Below, one piece after another: positions 1 through 16,766 of a stretch of 64,000 bases of DNA (its first letter is position 1; every line of letters begins with the position of its first letter). The DNA is from Terasakiispira papahanaumokuakeensis. GTDB taxonomy: Bacteria > Pseudomonadota > Gammaproteobacteria > Pseudomonadales > Halomonadaceae. The translations under genes and the position numbers were made by a program. The notes under the pieces are model-generated. The model searched no databases. It worked only from the letters and a program-made list of their open reading frames with translations, and was not told the DNA's origin. The stretch is taken from contig NZ_MDTQ01000001.1 of NCBI RefSeq assembly GCF_001709345.1, positions 744,001 to 808,000 of the forward strand, given 5' to 3'.

Positions 1-327
1 TTTGACCTGACACAGGCAACCTCGCAAACCCAGTTGAAGGGGGTTAAAGCGCGGTTTTTAAAGCATTACGACGTCTTGGGCGTTCGTGTGATGACGTTGG
101 GGCAGGCTGAAGGTCAAGGGCTTTTGTCTCCAGCCTCGTTCTCTCAAGACCCGAGCGATGATCGCGAACAACAACGTTTGGCACTGACTCAGCAGCAAGT
201 GCAGCAGCGTTGCCAAGCTCAGGGGTTGCCGATGCGGATGAGTGCCGAAGAGGCGTTTGCCCATTGGGAGCAGTTGGTCGCTTTGCCGCCTGCTCGCACG
301 GCATCGGCCGTTAACCGTATTGAATAG
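1..327 (+). CDS. Phage-type protein of unknown function, 5' end outside window
   Basis: The reading frame is open from the first base of the window to a stop at 327, so the gene is truncated at its 5' side; the TTG at 34 is probably not the real start. The visible 109 codons give a polar, Gln-rich protein with no signal peptide or membrane segment. I do not recognise the family. It is followed 11 bp later by a winged-helix gene on the same strand, so it probably belongs to the early/regulatory part of the phage-derived locus. Confidence 0.5.
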   Translation, partial: FDLTQATSQTQLKGVKARFLKHYDVLGVRVMTLGQAEGQGLLSPASFSQDPSDDREQQRLALTQQQVQQRCQAQGLPMRMSAEEAFAHWEQLVALPPARTASAVNRIE

Positions 328-338
328 GAGGTGATCTG

Positions 339-629
339 ATGAGATTACACACACGGGGGTCGACAGGGGCCTTCTATAAACGCCGAAAAACTCAGGAAAT
401 TAGCATCTTGCAAGCGCTGAATGATGTCCCTGAGGGCATGACGCGCAGTGAGTTAGCGCAAGACTTGAAGCTGCGAGTGAGTTCAGTGTGTGGTCGTTGC
501 CGAACACTCATAGATCACCATCTCGTTAGCGTCGAGCAGGTTCGCCACTGCCGCGTCAGCCAGCGTCGGGTTCAAGCATTAGTACTGACCGCTGAAGGCC
601 AAGCCGCACTGAGTCAATACCGGCATTAA
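339..629 (+). CDS. Small winged-helix DNA-binding protein
   Basis: A 96-residue basic protein. Residues about 20-85 read as a winged helix: a first helix 'EISILQALNDV', a turn 'MTRSELAQDLKL', a recognition-like helix 'SSVCGRCRTLIDHHLV' and a wing ending in 'ALVLTAEGQAAL', similar in layout to MarR-type or phage wHTH proteins. The start at 339 has a very strong ribosome site (AGGAGGTGAT). It lies in the pre-lysis regulatory segment, so a transcription role in the tailocin or prophage is plausible, but target and mode are unknown. Confidence 0.6.
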   Translation: MRLHTRGSTGAFYKRRKTQEISILQALNDVPEGMTRSELAQDLKLRVSSVCGRCRTLIDHHLVSVEQVRHCRVSQRRVQALVLTAEGQAALSQYRH

Positions 630-676
630 GTCGAGTTGATGAAGATACGCTCAAGCGCAGATTTTGGGAGGTTAGG

Positions 677-1237
677 ATGACAATACACAAGCGTTACACC
701 CTGATGCTGGATGCGATGAGCTTGACTCAGTTGCAAGCTGAAATGCGTCATGACGATTGGCGAGCCCCATTGGCGCGTAAAGCCTTTGCGGAGCAGTTGC
801 TGGCGATCCGGCTCGACACCTTGCTGGGCTATGATGAACCAGGTTGGCACAGTGTGAGCCCTTTATATGGCGCGATAGAATTTCAAGGCAGTTTACCTGA
901 TGGATTACGGCAAAAGCCCAGTGATCGTGTGCTGCAAGCAGCGGATAGGATGCGTCAAATGACGCGCGCTGAAACACTGGCTGCACAGTTGATTGATCGG
1001 TTACCGGCCCGTCAACGCTTGGCTTTATTAATTGATGGATTGCGCCAACGTTATCAAATGACCCGTGCCGCCGCCTGTCAGCTAGAATCTTGGTCAAAAT
1101 TGGCAGGCCAGTTGCAGCTCTCGCGGTGGTTGACGCCGAAACAAATGAAACCCATGTCGCCTCAGCAAATGGGGGTATCGGTTGGGCAGGCGCGCCAACG
1201 TTTATCTGATGAGCTTGAGCTGCACCAAGCGGCCTAG
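677..1237 (+). CDS. Phage regulatory protein, possible late antiterminator
   Basis: A 186-residue soluble basic protein with start ATG 677 and a good ribosome site (gggagg). Residues about 110-135 ('LPARQRLALLIDGLRQRY') resemble the helix-turn-helix entry seen in sigma region 4 and in several phage Q/ArpU-type antiterminators, but the similarity is weak. Position is the better evidence: it is the last gene before a LexA box, a sigma-70-like promoter and an immediate terminator, followed by holin and endolysin, which is where lambda carries Q. Function as an antiterminator is inference. Otherwise unrecognised. Confidence 0.45.
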   Translation: MTIHKRYTLMLDAMSLTQLQAEMRHDDWRAPLARKAFAEQLLAIRLDTLLGYDEPGWHSVSPLYGAIEFQGSLPDGLRQKPSDRVLQAADRMRQMTRAETLAAQLIDRLPARQRLALLIDGLRQRYQMTRAAACQLESWSKLAGQLQLSRWLTPKQMKPMSPQQMGVSVGQARQRLSDELELHQAA

Positions 1238-1255
1238 CGGGTTTCAAGAAAAATA

Positions 1256-1271
1256 CTGTATAAATATACAG
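1256..1271. promoter_or_regulatory. LexA (SOS) box
   Basis: CTGTATAAATATACAG matches the gammaproteobacterial LexA consensus CTGT-N8-ACAG with an all-A/T core; with its flanks it agrees with the 20-bp E. coli consensus at 18 positions. It ends 7 bp before the -35 hexamer of the promoter that drives the lysis and tail genes. This implies DNA-damage control of particle production and lysis. Confidence 0.8.
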
Positions 1272-1278
1272 AAAATGC

Positions 1279-1307
1279 TTGACCCTTTTTTATCTCAGCG
1301 GCATAAT
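1279..1307 (+). promoter_or_regulatory. Late promoter for lysis/tail operon
   Basis: TTGACC (1279-1284), a 17-bp spacer and CATAAT (1302-1307) form a good sigma-70 promoter. Transcription would start near 1314, only about 15 nt before a strong terminator hairpin and downstream of the LexA box. The gene order is early regulator, promoter, terminator, holin. Confidence 0.6.
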
Positions 1308-1328
1308 ATCTCTATCTTGTGATTCATA

Positions 1329-1364
1329 CGCCCCGACGGCCTAAGCCGTTGGGGCGTTTTCGTT
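1329..1364 (+). terminator. Leader terminator upstream of lysis genes
   Basis: A 12-bp stem with one G-T wobble (CGCCCCGACGGC / GCCGTTGGGGCG, loop CTAA, 1329-1356) is followed by a U-rich tract TTTTCGTTT. It sits between the late promoter and the holin gene, so it would stop most transcripts unless antitermination occurs, like tR' after lambda PR'. Confidence 0.75.
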
Positions 1365-1408
1365 TCGAATCTTTGCTTTTTTCTACTGGTTTCATCCATG
1401 AGGTCCCC

Positions 1409-1627
1409 ATGACTGAATTACTGACGATCTCGACAGCGCACACCTTGGTGTTGGCGCTGGCGTCGCTCGTGCTCGTTCGGCTGGCCTTAATGCTGCTGGA
1501 TCGTGCAACGGGCCGCTCTTTCGCTCAAACGCTGGAGGTGATGCATGCCAATCCACTGGCGCTGTCTATTTATTATGGTTGCCGCTTTATTGGCGCCTGT
1601 TTGTTGGTCGGCCTCGCTATCGGATGA
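1409..1627 (+). CDS. Putative holin, two membrane segments
   Basis: A 72-residue hydrophobic protein starting at ATG 1409 with GAGGT just upstream. An upstream in-frame start at 1319 would run through the terminator hairpin and is rejected. Two hydrophobic helices (about residues 9-30 and 50-71) flank a short polar loop with Arg and Asp. Its size, topology and place directly before an exported muralytic enzyme fit a class II-type holin that permeabilises the inner membrane to time lysis. Its 3' end overlaps the endolysin gene by 83 bp in another frame, giving tight translational coupling. Confidence 0.65.
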   Translation: MTELLTISTAHTLVLALASLVLVRLALMLLDRATGRSFAQTLEVMHANPLALSIYYGCRFIGACLLVGLAIG

Positions 1628-2114
1628 TCAGTACGATGCCGCGATTCAGCAAGCGGTAAAGCGCTGGTGGCCTGGGGTCGATTGGCGCTTATGGAAGGCT
1701 CAGCTCTGGCAAGAAAGTCGATTTGATCCTGATGCCGTTTCGCCGGTAGGTGCTCGCGGGCTGGCGCAGTTTATGCCCGCCACCTGGGCTGACGTCAGTC
1801 AGCAAATGCAGATGGCCGGGCTCTCGGCCCACTTAGCAGAACCGGCAATCGAAGCGGGCGCTTTTTATATGGCGCGATTACGTCAAAATTGGTCGAGCCC
1901 GCGGCCCGAGCAAGACCGCCACTCTCTGGCGATGGCTTCTTATAACGCGGGCTTGGGCAACCTGCTCAAGGCTCAAAGGGCATGCGATGGGGCGCTGTTG
2001 TACGCCGACATTGCGCAATGCTTGCCGCAGATCACCGGGCCCCATGCCTCAGAAACGCTTCATTATGTGCCCGCCGTTTGGCGTTGGTACCGCGCCCTTT
2101 TGCTGCTCGAGTAA
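1545..2114 (+). CDS. Endolysin: SLT-family lytic transglycosylase
   Basis: A 189-residue soluble lytic transglycosylase that cleaves the glycan strands of peptidoglycan. The goose-lysozyme/SLT signature is clear: catalytic Glu in 'WQESRFDP' (about residue 57), 'GARGLAQFMPATW', and 'ASYNAGLGNLLKAQ'. The N-terminus 'CLFIMVAALLAPVCWSA' looks like a Sec signal or signal-anchor, so the enzyme may be exported and activated when the membrane collapses. It overlaps the holin gene upstream and is followed 5 bp later by the spanin gene. SLT enzymes also occur as housekeeping Mlt proteins, but this operon position marks it as the locus endolysin. Confidence 0.85.
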   Translation: MPIHWRCLFIMVAALLAPVCWSASLSDDQYDAAIQQAVKRWWPGVDWRLWKAQLWQESRFDPDAVSPVGARGLAQFMPATWADVSQQMQMAGLSAHLAEPAIEAGAFYMARLRQNWSSPRPEQDRHSLAMASYNAGLGNLLKAQRACDGALLYADIAQCLPQITGPHASETLHYVPAVWRWYRALLLLE

Positions 2115-2119
2115 ATCCT

Positions 2120-2515
2120 ATGTCGATCTCCCGCTTAATGCTGCTGGCTGCTGCCTTGCTGGCGGCTTTGGCTTATCACGTCATCACGGTGTCTCGCTTG
2201 GAACAAGACATCCATGATACGCAGCATTTGTTGCAGCAGGTTAAACAGGATCGGGAGACCTATCAGGCCGCGCTGGCGCATGTTCAAGACACGCTCAAAC
2301 AGGTGCGTGACCAGTATCAGCGGGAAGTGAGTGCACGCGATGCGGCTCAACGGCAGGCCCAACAATTGGAGGCGGACTATGCGCAAGCCAAACGTCAGTT
2401 GTTACAGCTATCCCAACAGGATGAAGCGGTGGGGCGCTGGGGTCGTCAGCCTGTGCCTGCTGCTTTGGTTGAGCGGTTGCAGCCCTCAGCCTCTCGCGCC
2501 GAGGGTGATCACTGA
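2120..2515 (+). CDS. Rz-like inner-membrane spanin
   Basis: A 131-residue protein with one N-terminal membrane helix ('LMLLAAALLAALAYHVI') followed by a long Gln/Glu/Lys-rich coiled coil (about residues 25-100), the architecture of i-spanins such as lambda Rz. The ATG at 2120 lies just after the endolysin stop; an upstream in-frame start at 1982 would lie inside the endolysin gene and is rejected. An Rz1-type lipoprotein gene overlaps its 3' end in the +1 frame, the usual genetic signature of a two-component spanin pair that fuses inner and outer membranes at lysis. Confidence 0.8.
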   Translation: MSISRLMLLAAALLAALAYHVITVSRLEQDIHDTQHLLQQVKQDRETYQAALAHVQDTLKQVRDQYQREVSARDAAQRQAQQLEADYAQAKRQLLQLSQQDEAVGRWGRQPVPAALVERLQPSASRAEGDH

Positions 2516-2711
2516 ACCGGTGATGATCTGGCCGAATCCTTTACCGCTGCGTCTGACAGAACCCATTCCTTTGCCCTCGATACCGCCACCGCCGGTGGTG
2601 AACCTGGATCTGATCCATTTATTGCTGCGTTATCAGCACTTGCTGGAGCAGGCGAATAATAATCGCACTGAAATTCAACAACGTTGGCCGGTGGCTGATG
2701 ATGGACCTTGA
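2421..2711 (+). CDS. Rz1-like outer-membrane lipoprotein spanin
   Basis: A 96-residue lipoprotein in a frame overlapping Rz. From ATG 2421 the protein starts 'MKRWGAGVVSLCLLLWLSGC', a textbook type II signal peptide with lipobox LSGC. The mature part is proline-rich ('PLPSIPPPP') like other o-spanins, then has a short amphipathic tail. Longer in-frame starts exist (2331, 2379) but would place a charged stretch before the signal. It overlaps Rz by 95 bp and the next gene by 14 bp. It is longer than lambda Rz1. Confidence 0.75.
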   Translation: MKRWGAGVVSLCLLLWLSGCSPQPLAPRVITEPVMIWPNPLPLRLTEPIPLPSIPPPPVVNLDLIHLLLRYQHLLEQANNNRTEIQQRWPVADDGP

Positions 2712-3003
2712 ACCTCATGAGACGTCTCCCATGGAGCGTCATATCCAAACCATCGTGGCGGGTGTGGTGGTGGCCATTTTGATCTGGGTCGGCGCGACGT
2801 TGAATACCGCAACACAGCAGACGGCGCGGCTCGAAGAGCGGCTCTCGTCGTTATTTCGAGAAGTGCAAATGCTGCGCGAACAACTGGGAAATCAATACAC
2901 CCGGCACGATGCAGAACGCGATTTATCGATTGTCCGTGCGCGGTTGGAAGACCAGCAACGTCGTCTTGAGCGTCTGGAGTCAAAGCTGTCGCGGGTGCCT
3001 TAA
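2698..3003 (+). CDS. Membrane-anchored coiled-coil phage protein (DUF2730/XhlA-like)
   Basis: A 101-residue protein with a single hydrophobic helix at about residues 17-37 and a charged heptad-rich coiled coil afterwards ('ARLEERLSSLFREV', 'RLEDQQRRLERLES'). Small TM-plus-coiled-coil proteins of this kind (DUF2730, hemolysin XhlA type) occur near phage lysis genes as accessory holins or antiholins. It overlaps the Rz1 gene end, so it is part of the lysis cassette. The exact role is not determined. Confidence 0.55.
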   Translation: MMDLEPHETSPMERHIQTIVAGVVVAILIWVGATLNTATQQTARLEERLSSLFREVQMLREQLGNQYTRHDAERDLSIVRARLEDQQRRLERLESKLSRVP

Positions 3004-3131
3004 CGATCACTTCTGTCTGCTTTGATCATTCTTCTCGTCTGACCCTTCTCTTCTCACTCTTCTCTTCTCAGACTTTTGCATCACTCACGCCTTTTCGAAT
3101 AACGGATACAGCTCATCGATCGAGGTTTAGC
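3004..3131. repeat. Pyrimidine-rich spacer with TTCTC repeats
   Basis: Between lysis and tail genes lies a CT-rich stretch with repeated 'cttctcttctca' units (about 3030-3070). No promoter or hairpin is evident. The same style of simple tandem sequence recurs at 3930-4025 and 16575-16620. Confidence 0.5.
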
Positions 3132-3845
3132 ATGATTAATACGGTACTCAATGCGCTGCGTAGCGAGGGGTTTGCAGCGTCACATTCAAGTCAGGTGCAG
3201 CTCGCCACGGATAGCAGTGAGTCTTCATTAAAGGCCCTGCTGTCCCCCTTATTTGAAAGCCCCATTGTGGGCGGCTTATGGGATGACCCATGGCCGGACA
3301 CTGGCGCCTGTTATCAATGGTGTGATCGTGTTCCGGTCCGCATTGACCGCTATGTGGTCGGCGTCCGGCCGACGTTTGAGGTCACGCTGACCGCGCCGGA
3401 TTTCAGCGCACTCAATCTTGCCATGCAGGCCGTGATGCAAGCCTGTGACGCCGATACACACTGGCAATGTGTGAAAGCTGAACATGTGACGCTTAATGAG
3501 CGACGGTGTGGCCGTTTAACGCTTTGGACTGGCGTTCGTATGACCGGTCCCAGTCTCCATCTTGTTTCAAGTGAAGCCGCCAGCCCTAACACCATGGGGG
3601 CTGTTGAACAGGTGGTCACTTCGACACTGGCCGTCATCCTGGTGGCTAAACCGGATGCGCTTGAGGCCTTGAAATCGCAAGTCAATCAAGTGTTGTTGGG
3701 GTTAGTGCCCGCCGCGGGCGATAGCGTGTTGCCGGTGATTTCACCACTGGCAGCAACCGGTGGGCGCATCCAAACTCATCTTGGCCCTGAGCTTTATTGG
3801 CGCGGGCTTTATCAGTATCGCGACCTGGCGAGCCGTCAGGCGTAA
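3132..3845 (+). CDS. Putative tail terminator/completion protein
   Basis: A 237-residue soluble protein. The C-terminal third ('VNQVLLGLVPAAGD', then 'GGRIQTHLGPELYWRGLYQYRDL') resembles phage tail-terminator proteins (Gp37/DUF1834 type), which cap the tube and fix its length. The N-terminal half has no match I recognise. It comes first in the morphogenesis segment, before the tail tube gene, where tail terminators usually sit next to the tube gene. In a headless particle such a protein could close the proximal end of the tail. The family assignment is moderate. Confidence 0.5.
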   Translation: MINTVLNALRSEGFAASHSSQVQLATDSSESSLKALLSPLFESPIVGGLWDDPWPDTGACYQWCDRVPVRIDRYVVGVRPTFEVTLTAPDFSALNLAMQAVMQACDADTHWQCVKAEHVTLNERRCGRLTLWTGVRMTGPSLHLVSSEAASPNTMGAVEQVVTSTLAVILVAKPDALEALKSQVNQVLLGLVPAAGDSVLPVISPLAATGGRIQTHLGPELYWRGLYQYRDLASRQA

Positions 3846-4097
3846 CCCCTTGCGTGGCGTTTAGCCGACGCTGTAGGGCTTGAAAGTGAACCTCTTGTGT
3901 TCACTGAAGCCCTTGTTTGACCCTTCTGAGGTTCCTTCGAGGGCCTTGTGATGGGTTCCTTCGTGGTTCCTTAGTTGTTCCTCTGCAGTTCTTTGTAAGT
4001 CGTTTTTTGTAAGTCGTTCCTTTCCTTTGTTTCACCGGTTTGCACTGCATTGAGCGGTAGCAGCCGATCTATTTTATTCACTCGGAGTAATCTGATT
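3846..4097. repeat. Intergenic region with GTTCCTT-type direct repeats
   Basis: Contains multiple imperfect copies of 'ggttcctt', 'gttcct' and 'tttgtaagtcgtt' between about 3930 and 4025, including two adjacent 'ttgtaagtcgtt' copies. No ORF is supported. A ribosome site (cggag, 4083-4087) precedes the tail tube start at 4098. Confidence 0.5.
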
Positions 4098-5057
4098 ATG
4101 CCTTTGATGCGTAAATCTTATGTCGTGGCTCAGCTTGAAAGTACAAAAGGTGAAGATGCTCAGCCGACCGCGGCTGACATTCTGCCGATTACCCAAATTG
4201 GCAGCTATACCCCTTACGACGGTAACACCCAATCTCGCGAACGCATGCGCCCTTACCTGGGTGCGGTTGAGCAGGTGAATGTGTCGCCGCGTGCCAGTAT
4301 CCAGCTCACCTTCCCGCTGTATGGCGCTGGCACTGCCGGTGAAGTGCCTTTCGTGGGCCGCGTATTGCGCGCCTGTGGTATGGCCGAGACGGTTGTGCCT
4401 GCCGCTGATGATGGCGCCACGGGTGCGCTGGTCAAGTACACCCCGACCAGTGCCGACTCTGAAACCCTAACGCTGTGGTTTGAGCGTGATGGTCGTTTGC
4501 AACGCCTGACCGGCGCTGTGGGTGCACCGACGCTGGATCTCTCGACTGAAGGCTTCCCGACGCTGCAAGTGACCTTTACCGGCGCTTACAACCGTCCGGA
4601 AGTCTCCCCGCTGGAAGGTGTTTCCTTCGAAGAAAGCCTGACTGAAATTCCGGTCAACAACCAGAATACGCCTAAGTTTGCAGTCCATGGTCAGGATGAA
4701 GTCATGCAATCGCTATCTGTCGACTTTGGCAACAATGTGGCCTGGAAAAACCTCGTGGGCTACGAAGGGGCTGACCGTACTGATCGTCAGCCGAGTGGTC
4801 AGGTCAATATTCGTGCCCGTGGCGCGGAAGAATCTCTGGCCTACTTCGAGATGATGGAATCTCACCGCCAGGTTAAAACCGGTTCGCTGGAGATTGTCCA
4901 CGGTGTGAATGAAGGCAACATCATTGAATTCCGTGCGCCGCAAGCACAGCTGTCCAGCATCAGCGATCAAGACAGCGATGGCCGTCTGCATTATCAGTTT
5001 GATCTCAGCCTGCTGCCAGAAAAGGGCGATGACGAGTTCGAACTGATCTTCCGTTAA
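4098..5057 (+). CDS. Major tail tube protein
   Basis: A 319-residue protein; start ATG 4098 has GGAG ten bases upstream (the TTG at 4050 is less likely). It resembles siphophage tail tube proteins: a beta-rich core ('ASIQLTFPLYGAG', 'GEVPFVGRVLRACGM'), a central 'SADSETLTLWFERDG...TGAVG' hairpin and a C-terminal Ig-like part. It is well placed between the tail terminator and the tail chaperone. It would polymerise as the tube of a non-contractile tail; there is no sheath gene nearby, so the particle is F-type rather than R-type. A terminator-like hairpin follows. Confidence 0.75.
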   Translation: MPLMRKSYVVAQLESTKGEDAQPTAADILPITQIGSYTPYDGNTQSRERMRPYLGAVEQVNVSPRASIQLTFPLYGAGTAGEVPFVGRVLRACGMAETVVPAADDGATGALVKYTPTSADSETLTLWFERDGRLQRLTGAVGAPTLDLSTEGFPTLQVTFTGAYNRPEVSPLEGVSFEESLTEIPVNNQNTPKFAVHGQDEVMQSLSVDFGNNVAWKNLVGYEGADRTDRQPSGQVNIRARGAEESLAYFEMMESHRQVKTGSLEIVHGVNEGNIIEFRAPQAQLSSISDQDSDGRLHYQFDLSLLPEKGDDEFELIFR

Positions 5058-5086
5058 TGCCTGATCGAATGTAATCCCCCTTTGAT

Positions 5087-5114
5087 GCCCTGCCGAATCC
5101 GGTGGGGCTTTTTT
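5087..5114 (+). terminator. Hairpin with T6 after tail tube gene
   Basis: GCCCTGCCG / CGGTGGGGC with loop AATC (two G-T pairs) followed by TTTTTT. It lies inside the tail operon, so it probably acts as a partial terminator or 3'-end stabiliser, raising tube mRNA relative to downstream genes. Confidence 0.6.
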
Positions 5115-5186
5115 GATCCTGGCCGATGGGTCGAGCATGGCATCACGCCGTGCGGTTCATGGCCTGATAAATGATGGAGTCTTTTC

Positions 5187-5531
5187 ATGTCTTTTACCCT
5201 GAAACCGATTACCGATATTCAAGTTGATGTCAGCATTGACGTACCGGGTGCTGAAAAGCCCTCGACTTTAACCGCGCGCTGGCGCCTGCACCCGTTCAGT
5301 GAACAGCAGCGCATTTATGATCGCCAGAAAAATGGCGAGATGACCGACGATGAACTGGTCCAAACCGATCTGTTGGATCTGCAAGGCGTTCAGGATGAAG
5401 CGGGTGACACCATCGCCTTTACCCCAGAACTGCTCAGCCAACTGATGGATCTGCCTTACGTGCGCCGTCCTCTGGTCTTGAGCTGGTTCCAGGCTCAACA
5501 AGGTCGTTCACAGGCCGCCGCAAAAAACTAA
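5187..5531 (+). CDS. Tail assembly chaperone, zero-frame product (gpG-like)
   Basis: A 114-residue acidic protein positioned between tail tube and tape measure, exactly where lambda gpG lies. It ends '...QAAAKN' with a canonical A-AAA-AAC slippery heptamer (5522-5528) read in frame just before the stop. Slippage by -1 fuses it to the downstream T-like frame. gpG and gpGT chaperones coat the tape measure protein and recruit tube subunits. The ATG at 5187 follows gatggag. Confidence 0.8.
   Translation: MSFTLKPITDIQVDVSIDVPGAEKPSTLTARWRLHPFSEQQRIYDRQKNGEMTDDELVQTDLLDLQGVQDEAGDTIAFTPELLSQLMDLPYVRRPLVLSWFQAQQGRSQAAAKN
5522..5528 (+). promoter_or_regulatory. -1 programmed ribosomal frameshift site A AAA AAC
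   Basis: The zero-frame codons are gcA AAA AAC TAA, the standard X-XXY-YYZ heptamer with the stop directly after it. After a -1 slip, reading continues CTA AAA GCG GCC into the frame that ends at 5866. Confidence 0.8.
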
Positions 5532-5866
5532 AAGCGGCCGGTCGGTACTGGGCGGGGGCGGGCGATGACCGTCGCGAACAGGCCCAGCAAGTGCTGGGCA
5601 TTCAGGTCGGCACGCCGGTCAGTACCGACGACGCTCCTGGCGAAGTGTGGGCTGAACACTGGCCTGCGGTCAGTCTGTTTCTGGGCGTTCAAACCCAGTG
5701 GCGGATTGCCGCAGGCATGGGCGGCCTTTTTTACCAGGGGTTGGAATATCCGGCCATCTACGGACACCCCGCGTTTACCACGCTGGACCCCGACACTCAG
5801 CAGACACGCCTTGAGCAACTGCAACTGATCGAAGCCGGTGCGCTTGAAGTGCTGAATCGGCGTTAA
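5528..5866 (+). CDS. Frameshift extension of tail chaperone (gpT-like, DUF1799)
   Basis: This frame has no independent well-placed start; it is entered by -1 slippage from the upstream gpG-like gene. The extension of about 112 residues has a DUF1799-like pattern: 'RYWAGAGDDRREQ', 'VWAEHWPAVSLFLGVQTQWR', 'GMGGLFYQGLEY'. DUF1799 proteins are the T part of siphophage gpGT. The fused product would be about 226 residues. A GTG at 5591 could start a shorter protein but has no ribosome site. Confidence 0.8.
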   Translation, partial: LKAAGRYWAGAGDDRREQAQQVLGIQVGTPVSTDDAPGEVWAEHWPAVSLFLGVQTQWRIAAGMGGLFYQGLEYPAIYGHPAFTTLDPDTQQTRLEQLQLIEAGALEVLNRR

Positions 5867-5926
5867 TCGTCCGGCCCTCCCTCCTGCGCCCTGCGGGGCG
5901 CTTCACCATCTTCAAGAGAAAGACTT

Positions 5927-8900
5927 ATGGCGAGTCAACACAAGACCAGCCTGATCATCGAGGGTGATGCGTCGGGCGGTATGGTCATTAAAGCAGCCCC
6001 AGCGTTAAAACAAGCGCAACACACGCTTAATCAAACGGCACAAGAAGCCCAAGCGCAGTTAGATCAATGGGTTAAGCATCTCAAAGCTGATGCTGTTGAA
6101 TACTCAACGCGCCGACTCAGTGAGACTTTAAATCAAACCGATCGGGCGCTAGATGTATTAAGCCAACGTTTGTCACTGAGTGGAAAAGAAGTCGATGTAT
6201 TCAAACGAACTTTGACTCAGGGCGCGAGTGATGCGGCGTCAGTACTCAAGCAGTTGGGAAAGAACTATCGACAAGATGACAAGCAACCTTGGCGGCAATC
6301 CATGGAGGCGATTGTGAGTCGCACTGGGGATCAGCTGGTTGAACGTGAGGCTAAAGTGCTGTCGACGCGTTTGGGGCAATGGGGACAGTCGCTTGATCAA
6401 GTCTTGTCCAAGCTTGAGTTACCTTCTGAAGTGAAAAGCATTGGACAGACTTCTTCCCAGCAACTGATTGCTGTGATGCAGCAGGCCGTGCAGCAAGCTG
6501 CTGCGGGGGAAACGCCGCATATGCAAGCAGCGATAGAAGCGATTGGTCGTCAATCACTTGAGTCGTTGAAAACATTAGGGCAGCAGGCGATTTCACAGCA
6601 AGTCGACCAAAGTCGCCAAGCGCTATCTCAAACGATACAGCAGCAATTGGGGCAACTGACTTTGCCTGGGCAAACCGGTGAAGTCCTAGAAAACCGCAGC
6701 AATCAACTGATTAAGGTTCTGAACCAAGGCGCTCAAGATGCGCTGCAAGGGCGTTCGGTCCACTTAGGTGATGCACTCAACGATATTAAAGACGGTTTGT
6801 TGGGGGATTTGAAATCGGAGGCCAAATCCGTCTCCAGCCAGGTGGTTGACGCAACGCTGGATCGTGTACATGACGACATCTCGAAAAAAATCAGTGAATT
6901 ATCCCTGCCCGGGCAAACCGGTGAAGTCCTAGAAAACCGCAGCAATCAACTGATTAAGGTTCTGAACCAAGGCGCTCAAGATGCGCTGCAAGGGCGTTCG
7001 GTCCACTTAGGTGATGCACTCAACGATATTAAAGACGGTTTGTTGGGGGATTTGAAATCGGAGGCCAAATCCGTCTCCAGCCAGGTGGTTGACGCAACGC
7101 TGGATCGTGTACATGACGACATCTCGAAAAAAATCAGTGAATTATCCCTGCCGGGGCAAACCGGTGAAGTTCTGGAAAACCGCAGTAACCAACTGATTAA
7201 GGTTCTGAACCAAGGCGCTCAAGATGCGGTTCAAGGGCGTTCGGTGCATTTAGGTGATCAAGTTAAGGCCATCAAAGAGGGGCTGTTGGATGACCTGGCT
7301 GATGAAGGTCGACAGATAGCCGGTAATGTCGCCGGGCAGGCGTTGGAGCACACTCATCAATGGTTAGACAATCAAGTCGTTGATCTAGCGTTACCCGAGG
7401 AAACCACCCAGCTATTGACGAGTGCTGTTGATCGCCTTGCTGAGATGGCCCACCAAACGGCCGATGATATGATCGCGGGCAAGTCTGTCGATGTATTGCC
7501 CATGTTGCGGTCATGGGGAGAAGAGACCCTTCAGGGGGCCAAGCAGAAGGCCGTGAACGGCGCTTCGCAATTGATTCAGGATGCACTGAGTGATAACACT
7601 GCGGTGCTCAGCCAGTGGCTGGGGCAAATGGGGTTACCTCAGGCCAGTTCGGCATCTCTTGAGCGCGTGATGACACAGGCCAGTGGCGAAATTTCGACAG
7701 CTGTTCAGACGCTGGCACAGAATTATTTAGCCGGTGAACATACTCACTTTGGCCGTGATCTTAAATCCATCGCCACAGGTAGTCTCGATGAGGTACTGAA
7801 AGGTCAAATTGAGCTGTTAACCGCATCTTTGGGCGACCTTTCCGGTGTGGCTGAGCAGTTGGCCCATTCTTTGGGCGTTAACCCCGAGAAGATGCAAGGG
7901 GTTGAGCATGTACTCCAGCAAGGGACTCAGGCCCTTGATCAGACCTTAAAGCATTGGTCGAGCGCTTTGGTGTCAGGGCAGACTATCCATTTCGGCGATG
8001 ATCTGAAAGGGATGGTGAAAACCACCGGTCAGCAGTTGGTCAGTGAAGGCATTAAAATGCTGACGGATTCACTGTTGAAAAAAGCACCGCAAGTGGAGCC
8101 CATGACACTGGCGGCAAAAGTAGATGCCGGTTCTCAACAAAACATTAAAGGGCTTGGGCAAGAGCTGAAAGGCCTGAATGCTCAGGCTCAAGCTTCAGCT
8201 CAAAGCACGACACAACTGACACAACAAGCGGGGCAGCTAGCGCAGTCTCTAGCGAATGTTGTTCCTGCGTCAAAGCAGGCCTCTTCGGCTTTTGATCAGT
8301 TTGTGAATGCCTCGACTGATCGTTTGGGCCTTTTTGCCTCTGATGTCTTTACCCAGTGGTTTGAAGAGGGCTCATTAGGTTTTGATGACCTGATGGATCA
8401 TGTTGAATCCTCCTTCAAAAATACTATGACAAGCTTGGCCTCCGAGCTGACCTCCTCAACCTTAATGAATGTGATGGGCGGCGGTGGGGCTCAAACAGGA
8501 GGCTTTGATCTCGGTAGCCTGATCGGGATGATCAGCGGTAACAGCAGTGGCGGTAGCTCGGGCGGCCTGAATATCGTTGATATGATCAGTGGTGCTGAAA
8601 AGGCCTGGGATTGGGCTTCTGAAGCCTTGGGCTTTGGTGGCGCATCAACAGTCGCAACGTCATACACCAATAGCGCAATAGGTCAGGGAATTAATAGCTA
8701 TTTGGCTTCAGGAGGCACTGAAGTCACCGGTAGTATACTGGCCTCTGCAACAGGCTCCCAGGCCGCAGCAGCCAATGCATTGCTCATCAACAGTGGTGCA
8801 CCGCCGCTGAGTCTCGCTAGCAATGAAGTGCTACAACAATATGGCATTACTCGAGCCGGGGTCCCAATAACGCAAAGTGGTGCTGCAGGAGCTGGTGGCT

Positions 8901-11557
8901 CTATCGCCTCTGGTTTAGGTACTGCAGCGGCAGGTTATGCGGGTCAATGGGTCGGTGGCCAGCTGGGTCAAGGTATCACCGGGAAGCATGCCAATTCTAA
9001 TATTGGCGCAAGTGTCGGCACCGCAGCAGGCGCCTATTTTGGCAGTATCATTCCAGGTTTAGGGACCTATCTGGGGTCAGCTTTGGGGGGAGCGATTGGG
9101 AGTTTTGCTGATGTTGCGTTTGGCTCGGGTCGAGAGGCTGTTGTGCGGTTTCGACAGCTGGCAGACACGCCCGAAAACGTTTACAAAAACGATCCCAACA
9201 ACGGTATGGTTTGGTACAAAGAGGGCGTTGGCCCTACTTTGGGATACGATACTGACCCCGAAAACGGCAACCTATGGTATAGCTCCGGGAGTTGGGATAA
9301 TGGCAACCTAGGGCGTGGTAGAACTTCAGCGTTTGGTACATACGGCTATTTATCTAAAGATGTGTTTGAGCCTGAGGATTTGGCCAAGTTTCTTGACGGC
9401 CTGAAAATGCTCGATGATTCGGTCGCTCAATTTCTTAATGAATCTGAAATCGCGAATATTAAGGATGATTTAGCAGGCTATTATTATCGTGGAGATGACC
9501 TGCCTGACATTATTGACGATCGCCTCACCATCATGTTTGAAAACGTTGATAGTGAGTTTGATGAAGGGCTGAAACGGCTGGCGCTGTCCGGGGGTAAGTT
9601 GCTCAATGACCGACAGAAAGAGATTTTTGATTCGGTATCCAAGGAGCAGTTGGCGCTTCTTGCTAGTGGTAATGCTGACGACTTGGAGCGAGATCTTTTC
9701 AACCCGTTCGGGTCTGGATATGTTGGGTTAGGCGGCGGAGGTTACGACTTAGATGAGGGCTTGTTTGCAGCCGCTTTTATTGATGCGCTCCAAATTGAAT
9801 CGCTCGGCGAACAAATGGGGGATGCGGTTGCTGAGGATATGTTCTCACGATTCTCTGAATCGTTGGAAAAATCGAAAAATACAGAGCAGATTGATGCGGC
9901 GGCTAACGCCATTTCATCGGTGGCCAACACCATACTATCCCTCGAAGAATCGGTTAAGACACTTAACTTCACCTTCGATGACACCTCTGAAAATGCCTAT
10001 GAGGCTGCCGAAGCGATCAACAAGGCCATGGGCGGCCTTGGGAATTTGCAGGCGGCGCAAACAGCGTATTACCAGAATTATTTCTCTGAAGAAGAGCGGC
10101 GGGCTGATACGTTCGAGTCGTTAAAAACATCACTCACCGATTACTTTGATGCCATTGATGTGGCGATGCCGAAGTCAAAGGCGGCATTTCGGGCCTTGGT
10201 GGAGTCGCTGGATGCGACGACCGATAGTGGGTCTGAGGCGTATGTGGCGCTGATGCAGATTCAGGGCCAGGCGGCACAGTATTATCAGTTGCTCGCAGAG
10301 CAGCAGGCGCAGGCGGCGCAGAATGCGTTGGCGTCATTTGAGCTGCCGGATGACATGCGCAGTTATCTGCAAGATCTCAGTGATTGGGCCACGCAGGAGT
10401 TGGCTCAGATCAGCCAGACTTATGCCGAACGCATCCGCTTGTTGGAGCAAGAGCAGCGCATCGGGCGTGAGTTGCGCCAGTATGTTGAAGAGTTGAAAAT
10501 CTCTGAGCTGAGTCCTTCTGGCCCGTCGGAAAAACTGGCTGAGGCGAGCGCCCAGTTTGCGGCGCTGTTGGTCAAAGCTGAAAACGGCGATATGGACGCC
10601 GCCGGGCGTTTGCGCGGCTCGGCTCAAACTTATCTCGAAAACGCTGACAGCTACTATGGCCGTACCGGTGCCTATACCCATGTGTTTGATGAAGTCATTA
10701 GCGCATTGGATAGCCTGGGTATCGGTTTCATGCAGAGCGATACCACGGCGGAGAAACTCAATGCTGAGATGCTGCGTGAGCAGCAGCGCATTCGGGATCA
10801 TGTCCGTTCAGAGCTGGATTGGGCGCAGCGTCAATTCACCCAACTGACGTCGATCAATCTGTTGTTAGAACAGCTGCCGGAGAGTTTGTCTTCTTCTCTG
10901 GCGGAGATCATTGCGGCTCAAAATACGAATGGAAGCTCTCAAAGTGGTGGTAGTCACGGTGGCAGTAGTGGCGGTAATCACCAGCCCCCCACACAACCCG
11001 ACCGTCCTGCCTTAACTGATGCCGGTTGGGCTGATCAACAAGTCCGTGCTATCGCTGCAGGGATGGTCAGTGAACCTGAATTGCAGCGGGTGATCAGCAA
11101 CTTCCAAGTTGCCCTCACGGATGGCGCGAGCCGTGAGGCAGTTTACAAAAATATGCTCACTGCGCTGATTGATTCGGCCAATTACGACTCCGAGTGGCAG
11201 AAAGTCTACGACTATTATATGGCCAAAGGTGTCGATAAAGTGCCGGGCATGATCAACGGCTCGCACCGCAACGGTTTGGCTTCAGTACCGTTTGATGGTT
11301 ACCGCGCTGAGTTGCATCAGGCGGAGATGGTGCTGCCCGCGCCTTTAGCCAACCATGTGCGTAATAGTGTCGGCCAGTCATCGGTCAATATTCAGCCGAT
11401 GGTGGCGTTGCTGGAGTCGCTGCAAAGTGAAGTCTCACGCTTGACTCAGTTGGTCGGGGCCTCGGCGGATCAGGCCGGTCGCCAACGTGAGCAGCAAATC
11501 AAAGCCACGCAACAAGCCGCTCGGCACGCCCGTCCCACCCCTGTCACGGTAGGATAA
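5927..11557 (+). CDS. Tape measure protein with 81-residue tandem repeats
   Basis: A 1876-residue protein that sets tail length. Residues 1-720 are helical and Gln/Ala-rich, with a repeat of about 81 residues seen at least three times clearly (starting 'LPGQTGEVLENRS' at about 246, 327 and 408) and several more times in degenerate form around the motif 'G-x-S/T-x-H-x-G-D'. Residues about 770-830 hold the lambda-type segment 'VFTQWFEEGSLGFDDLMDHV'. Residues about 950-1070 are Gly/Ala-rich and hydrophobic, as in tape measures that contact the membrane. The C-terminus has the common 'GLASVPFDGYRAELHQAEMVLP' motif. No peptidase or transglycosylase domain is obvious. Length is large even for siphophages. 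Confidence 0.9.
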   Translation: MASQHKTSLIIEGDASGGMVIKAAPALKQAQHTLNQTAQEAQAQLDQWVKHLKADAVEYSTRRLSETLNQTDRALDVLSQRLSLSGKEVDVFKRTLTQGASDAASVLKQLGKNYRQDDKQPWRQSMEAIVSRTGDQLVEREAKVLSTRLGQWGQSLDQVLSKLELPSEVKSIGQTSSQQLIAVMQQAVQQAAAGETPHMQAAIEAIGRQSLESLKTLGQQAISQQVDQSRQALSQTIQQQLGQLTLPGQTGEVLENRSNQLIKVLNQGAQDALQGRSVHLGDALNDIKDGLLGDLKSEAKSVSSQVVDATLDRVHDDISKKISELSLPGQTGEVLENRSNQLIKVLNQGAQDALQGRSVHLGDALNDIKDGLLGDLKSEAKSVSSQVVDATLDRVHDDISKKISELSLPGQTGEVLENRSNQLIKVLNQGAQDAVQGRSVHLGDQVKAIKEGLLDDLADEGRQIAGNVAGQALEHTHQWLDNQVVDLALPEETTQLLTSAVDRLAEMAHQTADDMIAGKSVDVLPMLRSWGEETLQGAKQKAVNGASQLIQDALSDNTAVLSQWLGQMGLPQASSASLERVMTQASGEISTAVQTLAQNYLAGEHTHFGRDLKSIATGSLDEVLKGQIELLTASLGDLSGVAEQLAHSLGVNPEKMQGVEHVLQQGTQALDQTLKHWSSALVSGQTIHFGDDLKGMVKTTGQQLVSEGIKMLTDSLLKKAPQVEPMTLAAKVDAGSQQNIKGLGQELKGLNAQAQASAQSTTQLTQQAGQLAQSLANVVPASKQASSAFDQFVNASTDRLGLFASDVFTQWFEEGSLGFDDLMDHVESSFKNTMTSLASELTSSTLMNVMGGGGAQTGGFDLGSLIGMISGNSSGGSSGGLNIVDMISGAEKAWDWASEALGFGGASTVATSYTNSAIGQGINSYLASGGTEVTGSILASATGSQAAAANALLINSGAPPLSLASNEVLQQYGITRAGVPITQSGAAGAGGSIASGLGTAAAGYAGQWVGGQLGQGITGKHANSNIGASVGTAAGAYFGSIIPGLGTYLGSALGGAIGSFADVAFGSGREAVVRFRQLADTPENVYKNDPNNGMVWYKEGVGPTLGYDTDPENGNLWYSSGSWDNGNLGRGRTSAFGTYGYLSKDVFEPEDLAKFLDGLKMLDDSVAQFLNESEIANIKDDLAGYYYRGDDLPDIIDDRLTIMFENVDSEFDEGLKRLALSGGKLLNDRQKEIFDSVSKEQLALLASGNADDLERDLFNPFGSGYVGLGGGGYDLDEGLFAAAFIDALQIESLGEQMGDAVAEDMFSRFSESLEKSKNTEQIDAAANAISSVANTILSLEESVKTLNFTFDDTSENAYEAAEAINKAMGGLGNLQAAQTAYYQNYFSEEERRADTFESLKTSLTDYFDAIDVAMPKSKAAFRALVESLDATTDSGSEAYVALMQIQGQAAQYYQLLAEQQAQAAQNALASFELPDDMRSYLQDLSDWATQELAQISQTYAERIRLLEQEQRIGRELRQYVEELKISELSPSGPSEKLAEASAQFAALLVKAENGDMDAAGRLRGSAQTYLENADSYYGRTGAYTHVFDEVISALDSLGIGFMQSDTTAEKLNAEMLREQQRIRDHVRSELDWAQRQFTQLTSINLLLEQLPESLSSSLAEIIAAQNTNGSSQSGGSHGGSSGGNHQPPTQPDRPALTDAGWADQQVRAIAAGMVSEPELQRVISNFQVALTDGASREAVYKNMLTALIDSANYDSEWQKVYDYYMAKGVDKVPGMINGSHRNGLASVPFDGYRAELHQAEMVLPAPLANHVRNSVGQSSVNIQPMVALLESLQSEVSRLTQLVGASADQAGRQREQQIKATQQAARHARPTPVTVG
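6671..7156 (+). repeat. Two identical 243-bp tandem repeats in the tape measure gene
   Basis: Unit 1 (6671-6913) and unit 2 (6914-7156) appear identical or nearly so at DNA level; a third unit starts at 7157 and diverges after about 100 bp. The 243-bp period is exactly 81 codons, so copy-number change keeps the frame and alters tape length. Confidence 0.85.
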
Positions 11558-11560
11558 TTC

Positions 11561-12964
11561 ATGACTGATCAAGACTTTCAGCGCTGGCTCAGAGAGCCCA
11601 GCGCGGCCCGCCTATTGCTGGTCGATTTACATCATGCCGAAGGCGTCGAACGGGTGGCCAACGGCGCTTATATTACCCATCCTGATGATGACCCGCCCAA
11701 TACACCGTATCTGGATGTGTTGAGCGAGGCGGTCGACATCACCCAAAGACTGGATGCCCAGCCGAGCTGGGGAGATCTGGCCTTGATCGATGATGGTCAA
11801 TTGGCCCATTGGCGTGCTTATCAATGGCGGGGGCATGAGGTGGTGATGCGGCTCGGCTCACCGGATTGGCCCTTGCGTGATTTTCGTGTGATCGCCCGAC
11901 AACAGTCGGGCGCTATTCTGTCGGCTGATCGGGATCGGTTAACCCTAGGGCTGTATGACCGTTCGGCCCTGCTGGATCAACCCATCGAGCGTGAGGCCTT
12001 GCCTAATGGCGAAGCGGCGCCGCTGGTGTTAGGGCGCGTGTTTTGCGCCCCGGCGGTTCGGGTTGATTCTCAATCCTTGCTGTATCGGGTCTCATGGTTG
12101 CCGGTGACTCGTTTGGTTGTTCGTGATGGTAATGGTCCGGAAATCGCCCATACCTCGCGTTATGCCACCGGATCGTTTATCGCCCGAGCTTACTCTCCAC
12201 GCGCCTTGTGCTGCGATGTGCTGGAGCCTCATCAGACACCGGCGCAAATCGTGCAGTGGGTCGCGGCCCAGTATGGCTTGTCGGTTCATTCTGGCGGGGC
12301 CGCTCAGGCTGAAACGTTGCCCGAGATTACGCTCGGGTTGCGTTATGACGGGGAAGTGACCGGGCGTCAGATCCTGGATGATGTCTGCCAGGCCATTGGC
12401 GGCTATTGGTCGATCGATATAAATGGTCAGCTACGGGTCCAGCGGTTGACGATGCCGGAGCAGGTCGACTTGACGTTAGCCGCAGACGATCTGGAGCAGG
12501 GCAGCATTCAGCTGGATCGGCTGGAATCCCCGTGGCGCTCACTGACGCTGCGTTATGACCGCAACTATGCCCCGATGAACGATATAGCCGGGTCCATCCA
12601 GGATAACCAGCCAGCGCTGGTCGAGCGCCTTTCTGAAGAATGGCGCGCGGTTACTCGCTCGCTGGATGACGTGACCACTGAAGATGATCTGGATCTGAAC
12701 GACTTCCCGCTGGCACAACCTAAAACGCTCTCCACGGTACTCACGCAAAAGGCCGAGGCGGAGCAAGAACTGATCCGTCGGCTGCGATTACACGCTAAAC
12801 GTCGTGAAGTCTGGTCGATGACCGCCTTCCTTCCCCCTTTTGAACTGTCGCCCGGCGTCGCGGTGCGCGTTCGACACCCGGCCCTGGCTGAACGTATCGG
12901 TCGGGTGATCAGCGTGTCGGCCTCGCCGACGTCCGGGCGTACGTCCTTGGAGATCTGGTACTGA
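11561..12964 (+). CDS. Tail tip/hub protein
   Basis: A 467-residue beta-rich protein directly after the tape measure gene. It has the layout of baseplate hub proteins: an N-terminal domain with 'LLLVDLHHAEGVERVANGAY' (beginning typical of tail tip proteins that specify 'thing/place' of assembly), a middle domain with 'QIVQWVAAQYGLSVHSGG' and 'GRQILDDVCQAIGGYWSID' as in gp44/gp27-like hubs, and a C-terminal 'PGVAVRVRHPALAERIGRVIS' OB-like part. It would form the distal ring that starts tube assembly. Its stop overlaps the next start (TGATG). Exact family not certain. Confidence 0.6.
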   Translation: MTDQDFQRWLREPSAARLLLVDLHHAEGVERVANGAYITHPDDDPPNTPYLDVLSEAVDITQRLDAQPSWGDLALIDDGQLAHWRAYQWRGHEVVMRLGSPDWPLRDFRVIARQQSGAILSADRDRLTLGLYDRSALLDQPIEREALPNGEAAPLVLGRVFCAPAVRVDSQSLLYRVSWLPVTRLVVRDGNGPEIAHTSRYATGSFIARAYSPRALCCDVLEPHQTPAQIVQWVAAQYGLSVHSGGAAQAETLPEITLGLRYDGEVTGRQILDDVCQAIGGYWSIDINGQLRVQRLTMPEQVDLTLAADDLEQGSIQLDRLESPWRSLTLRYDRNYAPMNDIAGSIQDNQPALVERLSEEWRAVTRSLDDVTTEDDLDLNDFPLAQPKTLSTVLTQKAEAEQELIRRLRLHAKRREVWSMTAFLPPFELSPGVAVRVRHPALAERIGRVISVSASPTSGRTSLEIWY

Positions 12965-13785
12965 TGGCTAACTTACGTATTCTGGCTGAGAACCTTTGGG
13001 ATCAAGCCGAACTCACGGCCTCAAGTCAGGCCATGCCAGTGGATTATACCCAGCGCAGTGAGCGGCCTTTTGTCTGGCGTTCCACCTCAGCCCAATCACA
13101 AACCCTGACCGCCACATTGCCTGCGGCGGCCTATCTCGACTGTATCGCCTTGGCCCGCCATAACCTTGGGGGCCTGGGGTTATGGCGCATTGAATTACTG
13201 CTGGCCGATCAAGTGGTTTATGACTCCAGTACGGTCAGCACCGGCATGCTCATTCCCGCCGGGGTCTTCCGGGCCGGGATTGATGCCTGGGGCGCCACTT
13301 ATAACGACCGCTTGCCGAACACCTCAAGCCTGGGCATTCACTGGCTGCCGGGGCCGCTCGCGGCCGATACCTTCCGCCTCACCTTAATGAGCGAAGGCGT
13401 GGACTACCTCGAAGTCGGCCGGGTCTTCGCGGGCCTTTCTTGGTCACCGCAATACAACCTCAACTGGTCGCCCCAAGTGGAATGGCAAGAAGATGCCGAA
13501 CACGCCATGACCGAAGGCGGCTCACTGCGCACCGTCGGCAGCGGCCGATTACGCCGTCACTTTGCCCTACAGCTGGATTGGCTGAACGCCTCTGACCGGC
13601 AAATGCTCGTCACCGACTTAGCCCGTATGGGCATGCGGGCCGACCTGCTGGTTGCCCTTTACCCTGATGAAGAGGGGCTCAACGCCCTGGAACACACCAT
13701 GGTCTGTCGGCGTGATGCCACCATCAGCCACACCCACAACATGCTGCGTAACTGGCAGACATCCTTATCTTTCCTGGAGGTTTAA
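12964..13785 (+). CDS. Minor tail / distal tail protein
   Basis: A 273-residue beta-rich protein that overlaps the hub gene stop by one base and is followed 2 bp later by the fibre gene. Residues about 30-150 look like a carbohydrate-binding jelly roll ('AAYLDCIALARHNLGGLGLWRIELLLADQ'), and the C-terminal half ('RRHFALQLDWLNASDRQMLVTDLARMG') resembles the Dit-like part of tail proteins. A role in joining hub and fibres is inferred from order. No enzyme motif is visible. Confidence 0.5.
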   Translation: MANLRILAENLWDQAELTASSQAMPVDYTQRSERPFVWRSTSAQSQTLTATLPAAAYLDCIALARHNLGGLGLWRIELLLADQVVYDSSTVSTGMLIPAGVFRAGIDAWGATYNDRLPNTSSLGIHWLPGPLAADTFRLTLMSEGVDYLEVGRVFAGLSWSPQYNLNWSPQVEWQEDAEHAMTEGGSLRTVGSGRLRRHFALQLDWLNASDRQMLVTDLARMGMRADLLVALYPDEEGLNALEHTMVCRRDATISHTHNMLRNWQTSLSFLEV

Positions 13786-13787
13786 CC

Positions 13788-15935: not shown

Positions 15936-16540
15936 TGGCCGAAAATCAACAGGGGTTTACGATGCAAATCATTGAAACTGACAGCGGTCGTTTTGTCGAG
16001 TACGGGGGTTTTACAAAACCGCTGCCGCCGCTGGCGGTTGACGCGGCGGTGCACGGGTGGATCACACCGGATCAGCTGTGGATCAGCGTTCAACGGCCGG
16101 GCGAGCTGAAAGATGTTTATCCAGGTGAGGATGGCCGGTATTTGGGCGCGCTGGGCATTGAGGCAGACCCAGAGCTGGCCGTGGCTGCAGAGCGCGAACA
16201 GCGTATCGAAACCCTGCGGGCCGCGATTGAAGACCAACGCAAGCAGGCAGAAGACCAGGGCGTGATATATGAAGGCATGCGTTTCTCGGGCAGCCCCGCT
16301 AACCGGCAGTATTTAAGTGAGGCGCTGCAGTTTGCCCAAGCTGTTGGCGTTGACACATTCGACACCTGGAAAGACAGCGATAACCGATTCCACGCTAATG
16401 TGCCCGTGGTCACCGTCACCGAGGCATTTCGGCAAATTGGCCAACGCCGCAATGCATTGTTTGAGCGCGAACAGCACTACGCCCAGCAGATTGACGCGGG
16501 CGAGCTGCTGAGCGCCGAGGGGCTTGATTGGGCCTTATAA
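15935..16540 (+). CDS. Tail fibre assembly/accessory protein, DUF4376
   Basis: A 201-residue protein whose ATG overlaps the fibre stop (ATGA). The C-terminal half ('YEGMRFSGSPANRQYLSEAL' to 'RRNALFEREQHYAQQIDAGE') is a DUF4376 domain, found in phage fibre-associated and fibre assembly proteins. The N-terminal part ('MQIIETDSGRFVEYGG...PPLAVDAAVHGWI') is variable. It is probably a chaperone or a fibre-tip adaptor for the upstream fibre. Confidence 0.7.
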   Translation: MAENQQGFTMQIIETDSGRFVEYGGFTKPLPPLAVDAAVHGWITPDQLWISVQRPGELKDVYPGEDGRYLGALGIEADPELAVAAEREQRIETLRAAIEDQRKQAEDQGVIYEGMRFSGSPANRQYLSEALQFAQAVGVDTFDTWKDSDNRFHANVPVVTVTEAFRQIGQRRNALFEREQHYAQQIDAGELLSAEGLDWAL

Positions 16541-16766
16541 ACGACTAACCTCACCACGTCTTACCCCGCTGTCTCTTTTATTTCTCGACTGCTCTTCTAT
16601 TTCTCGATTTCTCTTCTGCAGTTTCGGCTTTAACGCCCACTTTTTGATGTCTTTCGCCTGCCCGTTGGCGCTTTCGGCTCATTGATCCGCTGATGGTCGG
16701 TGTCGTCGGCCCTGCGCGATGCTGTGCGTTGGTTCGGCAGGCCGTTTTCTTACTGGAGGTTTAACC
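16541..16766. repeat. Spacer between fibre cassettes with CT-rich repeats and duplicated leader
   Basis: Contains 'tttatttctcgactgctcttctatttctcgatttctcttctg' type repeats (about 16578-16620, given here only as a description of repeated 'tatttctcga' units). At 16754-16766 the sequence 'ctggaggtttaacc' repeats the leader just before the first fibre start (13775-13787), marking the left edge of the duplicated cassette. Confidence 0.5.

Follow-up and report, generated by a model that had tools for sequence, protein, structure and literature searches.

In Terasakiispira papahanaumokuakeensis, a headless prophage derivative with tail genes carries a palindrome of SOS-box quality at its late promoter. 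On balance, this palindrome is probably a genuine operator of the host LexA that forms a double SOS lock together with a CI-type repressor and a protein in the position of lambda Q. The element was analyzed in a stretch of 64,000 nucleotides (C1:744001-808000, hereafter the window) and in the sequence to its left; its features are listed in Table 1. As judged from the sequence, the combination of a Q-type late promoter with a candidate host LexA operator in a headless tail element under SOS control appears to be a new form of a familiar arrangement.

A near-consensus LexA site at 1256-1271 had been described in the earlier note, and this description held. CTGTATAAATATACAG is the sole exact match to CTGTN8ACAG that a pattern search found inside the 64-kb window. 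It is identical to CTGTATATATATACAG at 15 of 16 positions, which ranks it joint first among the 36 exact cores of the host genome (4.05 Mb). All eight spacer positions are A/T, a property shared by 5 of the 36 cores including this one. It is this quality, not the site count, that distinguishes the box. The reversed control pattern occurs 30 times in the genome, and CTGTATANANANACAG with up to two mismatches was found 32 times in forward form as compared to 30 times for the control; thus, the number of sites by itself proves nothing. Weak LexA-type sites are not enriched in the window either, with 12 sites at one mismatch as compared to a shuffle mean of 18.8. From the genome counts, a stretch of 100 bp is expected to contain an exact core with a probability of about 0.0009, and one with an all-A/T spacer with a probability of about 0.0001. 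The host possesses a lexA gene (TIGR00498 above cutoff at C1:1066962-1067555), and CTGTAAGGAATAACAG upstream of it is lexA's own box. Other strong host boxes precede uvrB, dinB, umuDC and ruvC or lie next to topB-like and ydjM-like genes, as named from their translations. A palindrome with an A/T-rich centre, its location in a promoter region and a host lexA gene with its own box are the features found here for an SOS operator. Two further host boxes (L002, C1:1427141; L003, C1:1519268) are about as good as that at 1256 and lie near genes lacking a familiar SOS role, one of them preceding a ureidoglycine-type gene by reading.

The distance of 7 bp between the site and the late promoter that had been claimed was confirmed as well, since the gap (1272-1278) comprises exactly 7 nt and is followed by TTGACC-17-CATAAT. 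This is the only sigma-70-like site found in positions 1-4000 on either strand. Shuffled sequences contain 2.3 such sites on average, so that the site is not above chance alone and the promoter call rests on conservation in relatives; the promoter aligns with that of a related element in another genus, described below. A minus-strand promoter at the box was ruled out, because the only promoter-like site in 1-4000 is on the plus strand. Transcription would start near position 1314. Relative to this predicted start, the box would be centred near -50 and cover about -58 to -43, which is the position of an UP element; it stands upstream of the -35 hexamer and not over it. Six terminator-like sites were found in 1-4000 (shuffle mean of 4.7), and that following the promoter has the most pairs. 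Folding of 1314-1370 yielded -29.4 kcal/mol (z = -5.9), and none of 200 shuffles was equally stable. A search of positions 1-20000 of the window with Rfam gave no matches. An intrinsic terminator-like hairpin directly 3' of the late promoter corresponds to a Q-type layout.

Table 1. Features of the element. Positions refer to the window unless they are preceded by C1; strand "." denotes a palindromic site.
Feature	Position	Strand	Basis
S24-type CI repressor with helix-turn-helix	C1:741631-742386	-	PF01381 and PF00717 above cutoff; outside the window
Gene in P position, 3' part; starts left of the window	1..327	+	ORF C1:743353-744327; position only
Small winged-helix (MarR/IclR-like) early-operon protein	339..629	+	phrog_1123 (no annotated function)
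Putative late regulator in Q position (186 aa), without match to a named family	677..1237	+	Position; family profile
Predicted LexA box CTGTATAAATATACAG	1256..1271	.	Exact core; near-identical box at equal spacing in G077
Predicted late promoter	1279..1307	+	-35 TTGACC (1279-1284), 17-bp spacer, -10 CATAAT (1302-1307)
Intrinsic terminator-like hairpin	1328..1357	+	13 pairs, then TTTTCGTTT; about 15 nt past the inferred start
Small protein in holin position	1409..1627	+	phrog_37365 (no annotated function); homologue in the G053 prophage 55% identical
SLT transglycosylase endolysin	1545..2114	+	PF01464 above cutoff; phrog_669 endolysin
Rz-like spanin	2120..2515	+	phrog_89, phrog_214
Rz1-like spanin, overlapping Rz in a different frame	2331..2711	+	phrog_456
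Small membrane protein, lysis region	2698..3003	+	phrog_462 (lipoprotein annotation); membrane span by reading
Tail module start	3132..5057	+	237-aa protein (3132-3845); tail-tube-like protein (4098-5057)
Tape-measure-related small proteins and 1876-aa tape measure	5187..11557	+	phrog_569, phrog_680, phrog_7740; PF08809
Distal tail and fibre-like proteins	11561..15935	+	phrog_8917, phrog_8610, phrog_5302

The promoter is followed by a lysis cassette and a non-contractile siphophage-type tail module with a tape measure, the gene content of an F-type tailocin. The protein encoded at 4098-5057 belongs to phrog_290, annotated as minor tail protein, and its tube-like role was read from position; homologues of the start of the tail module are present in prophages. 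In the early operon, the matches of the protein encoded at 339-629 to Pfam MarR_2 and HTH_IclR were both below cutoff. No sheath match was found among the scanned proteins of the element. By eye, neither head nor terminase nor portal genes were seen among ORFs of at least 90 aa in C1:704001-750000 and of at least 50 aa in positions 1-24000 of the window. HMMER searches with eight head seed proteins, which head families unlike the seeds could escape, gave no match over the first 17 kb of the window and the adjoining 2 kb to the left. Thus, within the searched stretches, the element lacks the head, terminase and portal genes that are likewise absent from F-type tailocins. The reading of this headless tail element as a weapon, which had been put forward before, is plausible from its gene content.

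Two regulatory genes accompany this module. The CI gene lies 1.6 kb left of the window edge and is divergent from the early operon, which comprises an O-like replication gene, the P-position gene running into the window and, as its last gene, that of the Q-position protein. The predicted repressor combines the helix-turn-helix and S24 domains with an Ala-Gly pair (A125-G126), S166 and K203, which we take to be the residues expected of self-cleaving repressors. The contrast drawn in the earlier note between lambda-like prophages, in which SOS acts through CI, and this locus with LexA finds no support, since the element retains an S24 CI-type repressor. The gene at 677-1237 occupies the position where lambda has Q. 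It is called Q-like in position only, because no described Q family was matched: eight members of the Q-position family (A1) compared with PHROGs, Pfam, NCBIfam and PDB sequences gave no antiterminator match. The family profile matched one sigma factor among PDB sequences (E 1.5), and matches in the profile databases were otherwise at chance level. The structural model of the window protein was poor (pLDDT 45). The model of a relative's Q-position protein had a mean pLDDT of 72.5, and its best three matches were ECF sigma factors (Z of 5.2, 4.6 and 4.1), a weak resemblance to sigma region 4 (Z 5.2-4.1) that is too weak for naming the protein. The VIA-align matches listed for this model included no known Q structure, and Foldseek against PDB and viral models returned nothing at an E of 0.001 or better.

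The box recurs in a headless relative in another genus, Oceanospirillum sediminis D5 (G077). There, the box CTGTAAAAATATACAG stands 7 bp before TTGCTC-17-TAACAT, and a hairpin follows. The Q-position proteins of both elements are 37% identical, the distal tail proteins of the phrog_8917 and phrog_8610 types 50% and 58%, and the end of the G077 repressor is 67% identical to the window CI over 85 aa. Both carriers retain open frames for the Q-position protein and CI, the G077 CI having been assigned by reading with a partial sequence check. The lexA gene of G077 carries CTGTATAAAATGACAG. Since the G077 genome (5.6 Mb) contains 172 exact cores as compared to 57 for the reversed control pattern, chance core matches are commoner there; the chance of a core at the very same offset is about 3 in 100,000. 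The threefold excess of cores exceeds the expected size of an SOS regulon and perhaps reflects a repeat family. After the G077 promoter, no homologue of the window endolysin or spanins was found, and the shared part of the operon is thus the tail together with one small membrane protein, assigned by place. G077 gave no head seed match, and the 15 kb beyond its repressor contained no siphophage head genes by reading. Beside the headless element (L227, G077:C296:117001-132000), packaging-ATPase-like, replication-initiator-like and integrase genes were seen by reading, a cluster that is possibly a tailless membrane-containing provirus.

The closest head-bearing prophage (G053) shares the lysis cassette of the window element, its endolysin being 63% identical. 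Endolysin homologues occur in 5 of 275 genomes and are strong only in G053 besides the own genome. Upstream of its promoter, G053 has the one-mismatch core CTGTTAATTTAAACAC and no exact core. In a tree of Q-position genes from 36 hand-chosen loci (L105 gave no row), the window element, G077 and G053 formed a clade (99/98), within which the window element and G077 were grouped at 84/26 on long branches. The two box carriers may thus share one origin inside a clade that also holds a box-less prophage, and a single gain of the box is possible on this tree.

In order to place the box in a wider context, loci with a Q-position gene were surveyed in the family. The Q-position profile gave 72 matches in 66 of 275 family genomes, and the flanks of 67 matches were read (left out were G155, G573, G576, G617 and the second G107 match). 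In a 390-genome sample of the order, the single match was that of the own genome. A unit of promoter and hairpin within 900 nt after the Q-position gene was found at 21 of the 67 loci, including both box carriers, by a second scan that required longer stems and admitted the -10 sequence CANNNT, a widening made so that CATAAT of the window could match. A looser first scan over 1500 nt had returned 25 loci and missed the window. The controls gave no unit on the opposite strand and one in a stretch 3 kb further on; by comparison with these, the unit is probably an old trait of the phage group. The search for exact cores covered 9000 bases from the start of every oriented locus; L134 stops about 540 nt past the gene. 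Three of the 67 loci (the window, G077 and L107) have an exact core within 900 nt past the Q-position gene, and only the window and G077 have it at a promoter and hairpin unit. At least one head or packaging gene, as detected with the eight seeds for terminase, portal, protease and capsid, lies near the Q-position gene at 51 of the 67 loci. For the 16 loci without seed match, head status was judged by eye among the genes listed, and 13 of them were excluded from the comparison. A box at the promoter and hairpin unit is present at two of three headless tail loci as compared to none of the 51 head-bearing loci, the probability of which by blind draw is 0.002 if shared descent and the 13 omitted loci are ignored.

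The third headless tail locus (L137, G018:C1:2608413-2625443) has sheath and baseplate-like genes, is of R-type by reading and showed no exact core in the stretch searched. It adjoins a queA-like gene, and three repeats of about 206 bp, each with a hairpin-like stretch, were seen by eye between its Q-position and baseplate genes. The conservation in related loci that the earlier note had asked for was partial: the box is kept at the same offset in G077, and it stands at no promoter and hairpin unit of the 51 head-bearing loci and was not seen in the searched stretch of L137. At L107 (G046:C1:1849533-1866569, oriented position 3400), the exact core CTGTTAATATATACAG lies 294 nt past the Q-position gene. 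The second scan detected no promoter and hairpin unit there, and by reading L107 has neither head nor tail genes; thus, boxes near the Q-position gene are not confined to tail elements. L110 has a core about 890 nt upstream of its Q-position gene, and neither L107 nor L110 was counted as an additional box carrier. Another 24 viral contigs with Q-position homologues, several of them copies of counted prophages, had no exact core just past the gene. Five further tail-protein loci (the second copy in the own genome, G066, G124, G147 and G032) had no exact core in the stretches read and carry head-type genes upstream by reading, with the view in G066 limited by a contig end. The tail protein was also found on eight viral contigs, one of which represents the own element; another, L158, has a core located 3' of its tail genes.

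A further difference was seen at the promoters themselves. Related prophages often carry a conserved, partly palindromic block, [CT]ACNANATG, that abuts the -35 hexamer; it was seen in head-bearing ones in a comparison of 15 short promoter rows that include near-copies of one prophage. Both headless box carriers lack this block, which suggests that a phage control block was swapped for a host operator.

From these features, we infer a mechanism with two locks. The headless prophage derivative with its tail genes would either have gained a LexA operator at its late promoter or have retained one. Occupying about -58 to -43, LexA would block RNA polymerase, most likely by covering the A/T-rich region for binding of the alpha subunit. 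At PrstA of CTXphi, an early promoter of a filamentous phage and thus of another kind than the lysis/tail promoter here, the LexA site likewise lies upstream of the -35 hexamer and acts on the upstream element. The S24 CI-type repressor, as the older lock, would silence the early operon encoding the Q-position protein, and without this protein transcripts from the late promoter would end at the hairpin. After DNA damage, RecA would promote cleavage of LexA, which would free initiation, as well as cleavage of CI, upon which the Q-position protein would be made and transcripts would pass the hairpin. Lysis proteins and tails would be produced only when both locks are open.

The two locks need not be of equal weight. 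LexA might be a minor brake, with CI and the Q-position protein dominating in lambdoid style and the box trimming leakage or blocking transcripts from the early operon. The CI with its cleavage residues, the strong hairpin after the promoter and the related head-bearing prophages that manage without a box agree with this explanation, as does the position of the box upstream of -35, from which LexA may repress weakly. However, a minor brake would not need equal spacing and a near-perfect core across genera in elements whose Q-position proteins are only 37% identical, and we regard it as rather unlikely, though it is the strongest competitor of the two-lock mechanism.

The earlier note had favored the opposite emphasis, namely that LexA gates lysis and particle genes directly, as for colicins. 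In its pure form, with LexA as sole gate and the hairpin and Q-position gene as relics, this explanation draws on the excellent box at the promoter. It has to contend with the strength of the hairpin, with the promoter and hairpin units at 21 of 67 loci and with the open Q-position and CI frames of both carriers, and it is improbable. Because the promoter is preceded by a Q-position gene and followed by a hairpin, removing only LexA should yield mainly short terminated RNA. What remains of the claim is a box of SOS quality at the lysis/tail promoter; "directly, as for colicins" is too simple in view of the terminator hairpin and the Q-position gene. Colicin operons are not known to include CI or a Q-type hairpin. 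They encode plasmid-borne protein toxins, unlike the window element. The likeness lies in host LexA on a weapon promoter in combination with further factors that delay induction (PMC4482635).

The palindrome could also belong to a phage regulator, either CI or the small helix-turn-helix protein encoded at 339-629, and merely resemble a LexA box. In 7 of 14 related viral contigs (L190, L192, L194, L195, L197, L201 and L188), CTGTTTGnnnnTACAG-type palindromes of the form CTGT..ACAG were found on either strand, 4.7-7.8 kb before the point where the Q-position gene ends; these may be either operators of phage repressors that look like LexA boxes or real LexA sites. However, the putative operators in the CI control regions are CTTGCA..TGCAAG in the window element and TGTTTA..TAAACA in G077. 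They are unlike one another and unlike the box, and the box was therefore rejected as a CI operator. CTTGCA-type palindromes with up to three mismatches number 28 in the window as compared to a shuffle mean of 38.7. The CI-region palindromes thus vary from one element to the other, but the box at the late promoter hardly changes and matches the SOS boxes of the host; this points to a host factor, and a phage operator is accordingly very improbable. Least credible is a decaying remnant with a functionless box: no integrase, terminase, portal or capsid gene was found in the stretches read around the element, but long open frames are preserved for lysis and tail proteins, their order is conserved, and both the layout and the box recur in the second headless element from another genus.

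The two-lock mechanism was compared with known systems. The closest is rhizoviticin, an alphaproteobacterial F-type tailocin that is UV-induced and recA-dependent; it resembles the window element in its headless tail cluster, lysis genes, relics of replication genes and a LexA-family CI-like repressor (PMC10811719). It differs in that control is ascribed to its own repressor; the main text does not use the word "promoter" and hence reports no host LexA box in front of the lysis and tail genes (PMC10811719). The pyocins of Pseudomonas aeruginosa are likewise SOS-triggered bacteriocins released by producer lysis, for which the activator PrtN is released once PrtR has been cleaved in a RecA-dependent manner; in the text available, LexA is not placed at the structural promoter (PMC13114513). 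Cleavage of LexA is also stated, in general terms, to derepress tailocin genes, with LexA adding oversight in P. aeruginosa, and no box is named in the text available (PMC12297226). Prophages wired directly to host LexA are exemplified by the Gifsy prophages, in which LexA governs antirepressor genes via LexA boxes (PMC3121763), and by phage GIL01, in which it governs the lysogenic promoter P1 via LexA boxes (PMC4551915). According to the excerpts of both sources, the LexA target there is not a lysis/tail promoter with a downstream terminator, unlike in the window element. Searches of the literature on LexA at late promoters or upstream elements, and on LexA boxes with tail-like bacteriocins, gave no counterpart; the excerpted literature on tailocins and LexA described no LexA box at a lysis/tail promoter.

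An element-encoded repressor is the usual explanation for why tail-like bacteriocins are induced in the SOS response. We tentatively propose, as a possible but doubtful route, that a lambdoid prophage became a host-kept tail weapon when [CT]ACNANATG-TTG was swapped for a LexA operator at fixed spacing, making a two-input gate in which LexA would control initiation and CI elongation. If so, the LexA box at the late promoter would be a readable mark of domestication, a simple sequence sign separating domesticated tail elements from decaying prophages, and it would show the host seizing the trigger of a suicidal weapon with presumed killing activity. The layout with two locks predicts sharper induction thresholds and a delay before lysis.

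Some observations concern the surroundings of the element. No 14-mer common to L027 and positions 16401-20500 of the window was found as a candidate att site. At positions -4234 to -2493 relative to the window (L027 about 15766-17508), two proteins with calcium-binding-like repeats were seen by eye, with no Pfam match; they are flanked by a tRNA-Gly gene and by the CI gene and are possibly cargo. A second, apparently complete Mu-like prophage is located at C1:1462001-1495000 (L221, L222) of the host. This stretch has no exact LexA core, and two distal tail proteins encoded there share 47% and 51% identity with their counterparts in the window element. By reading, a CRISPR-Cas cluster with repeat-bearing frames is present at about 1700-10500 of L027, at a distance of about 10-18 kb from the left edge of the window.
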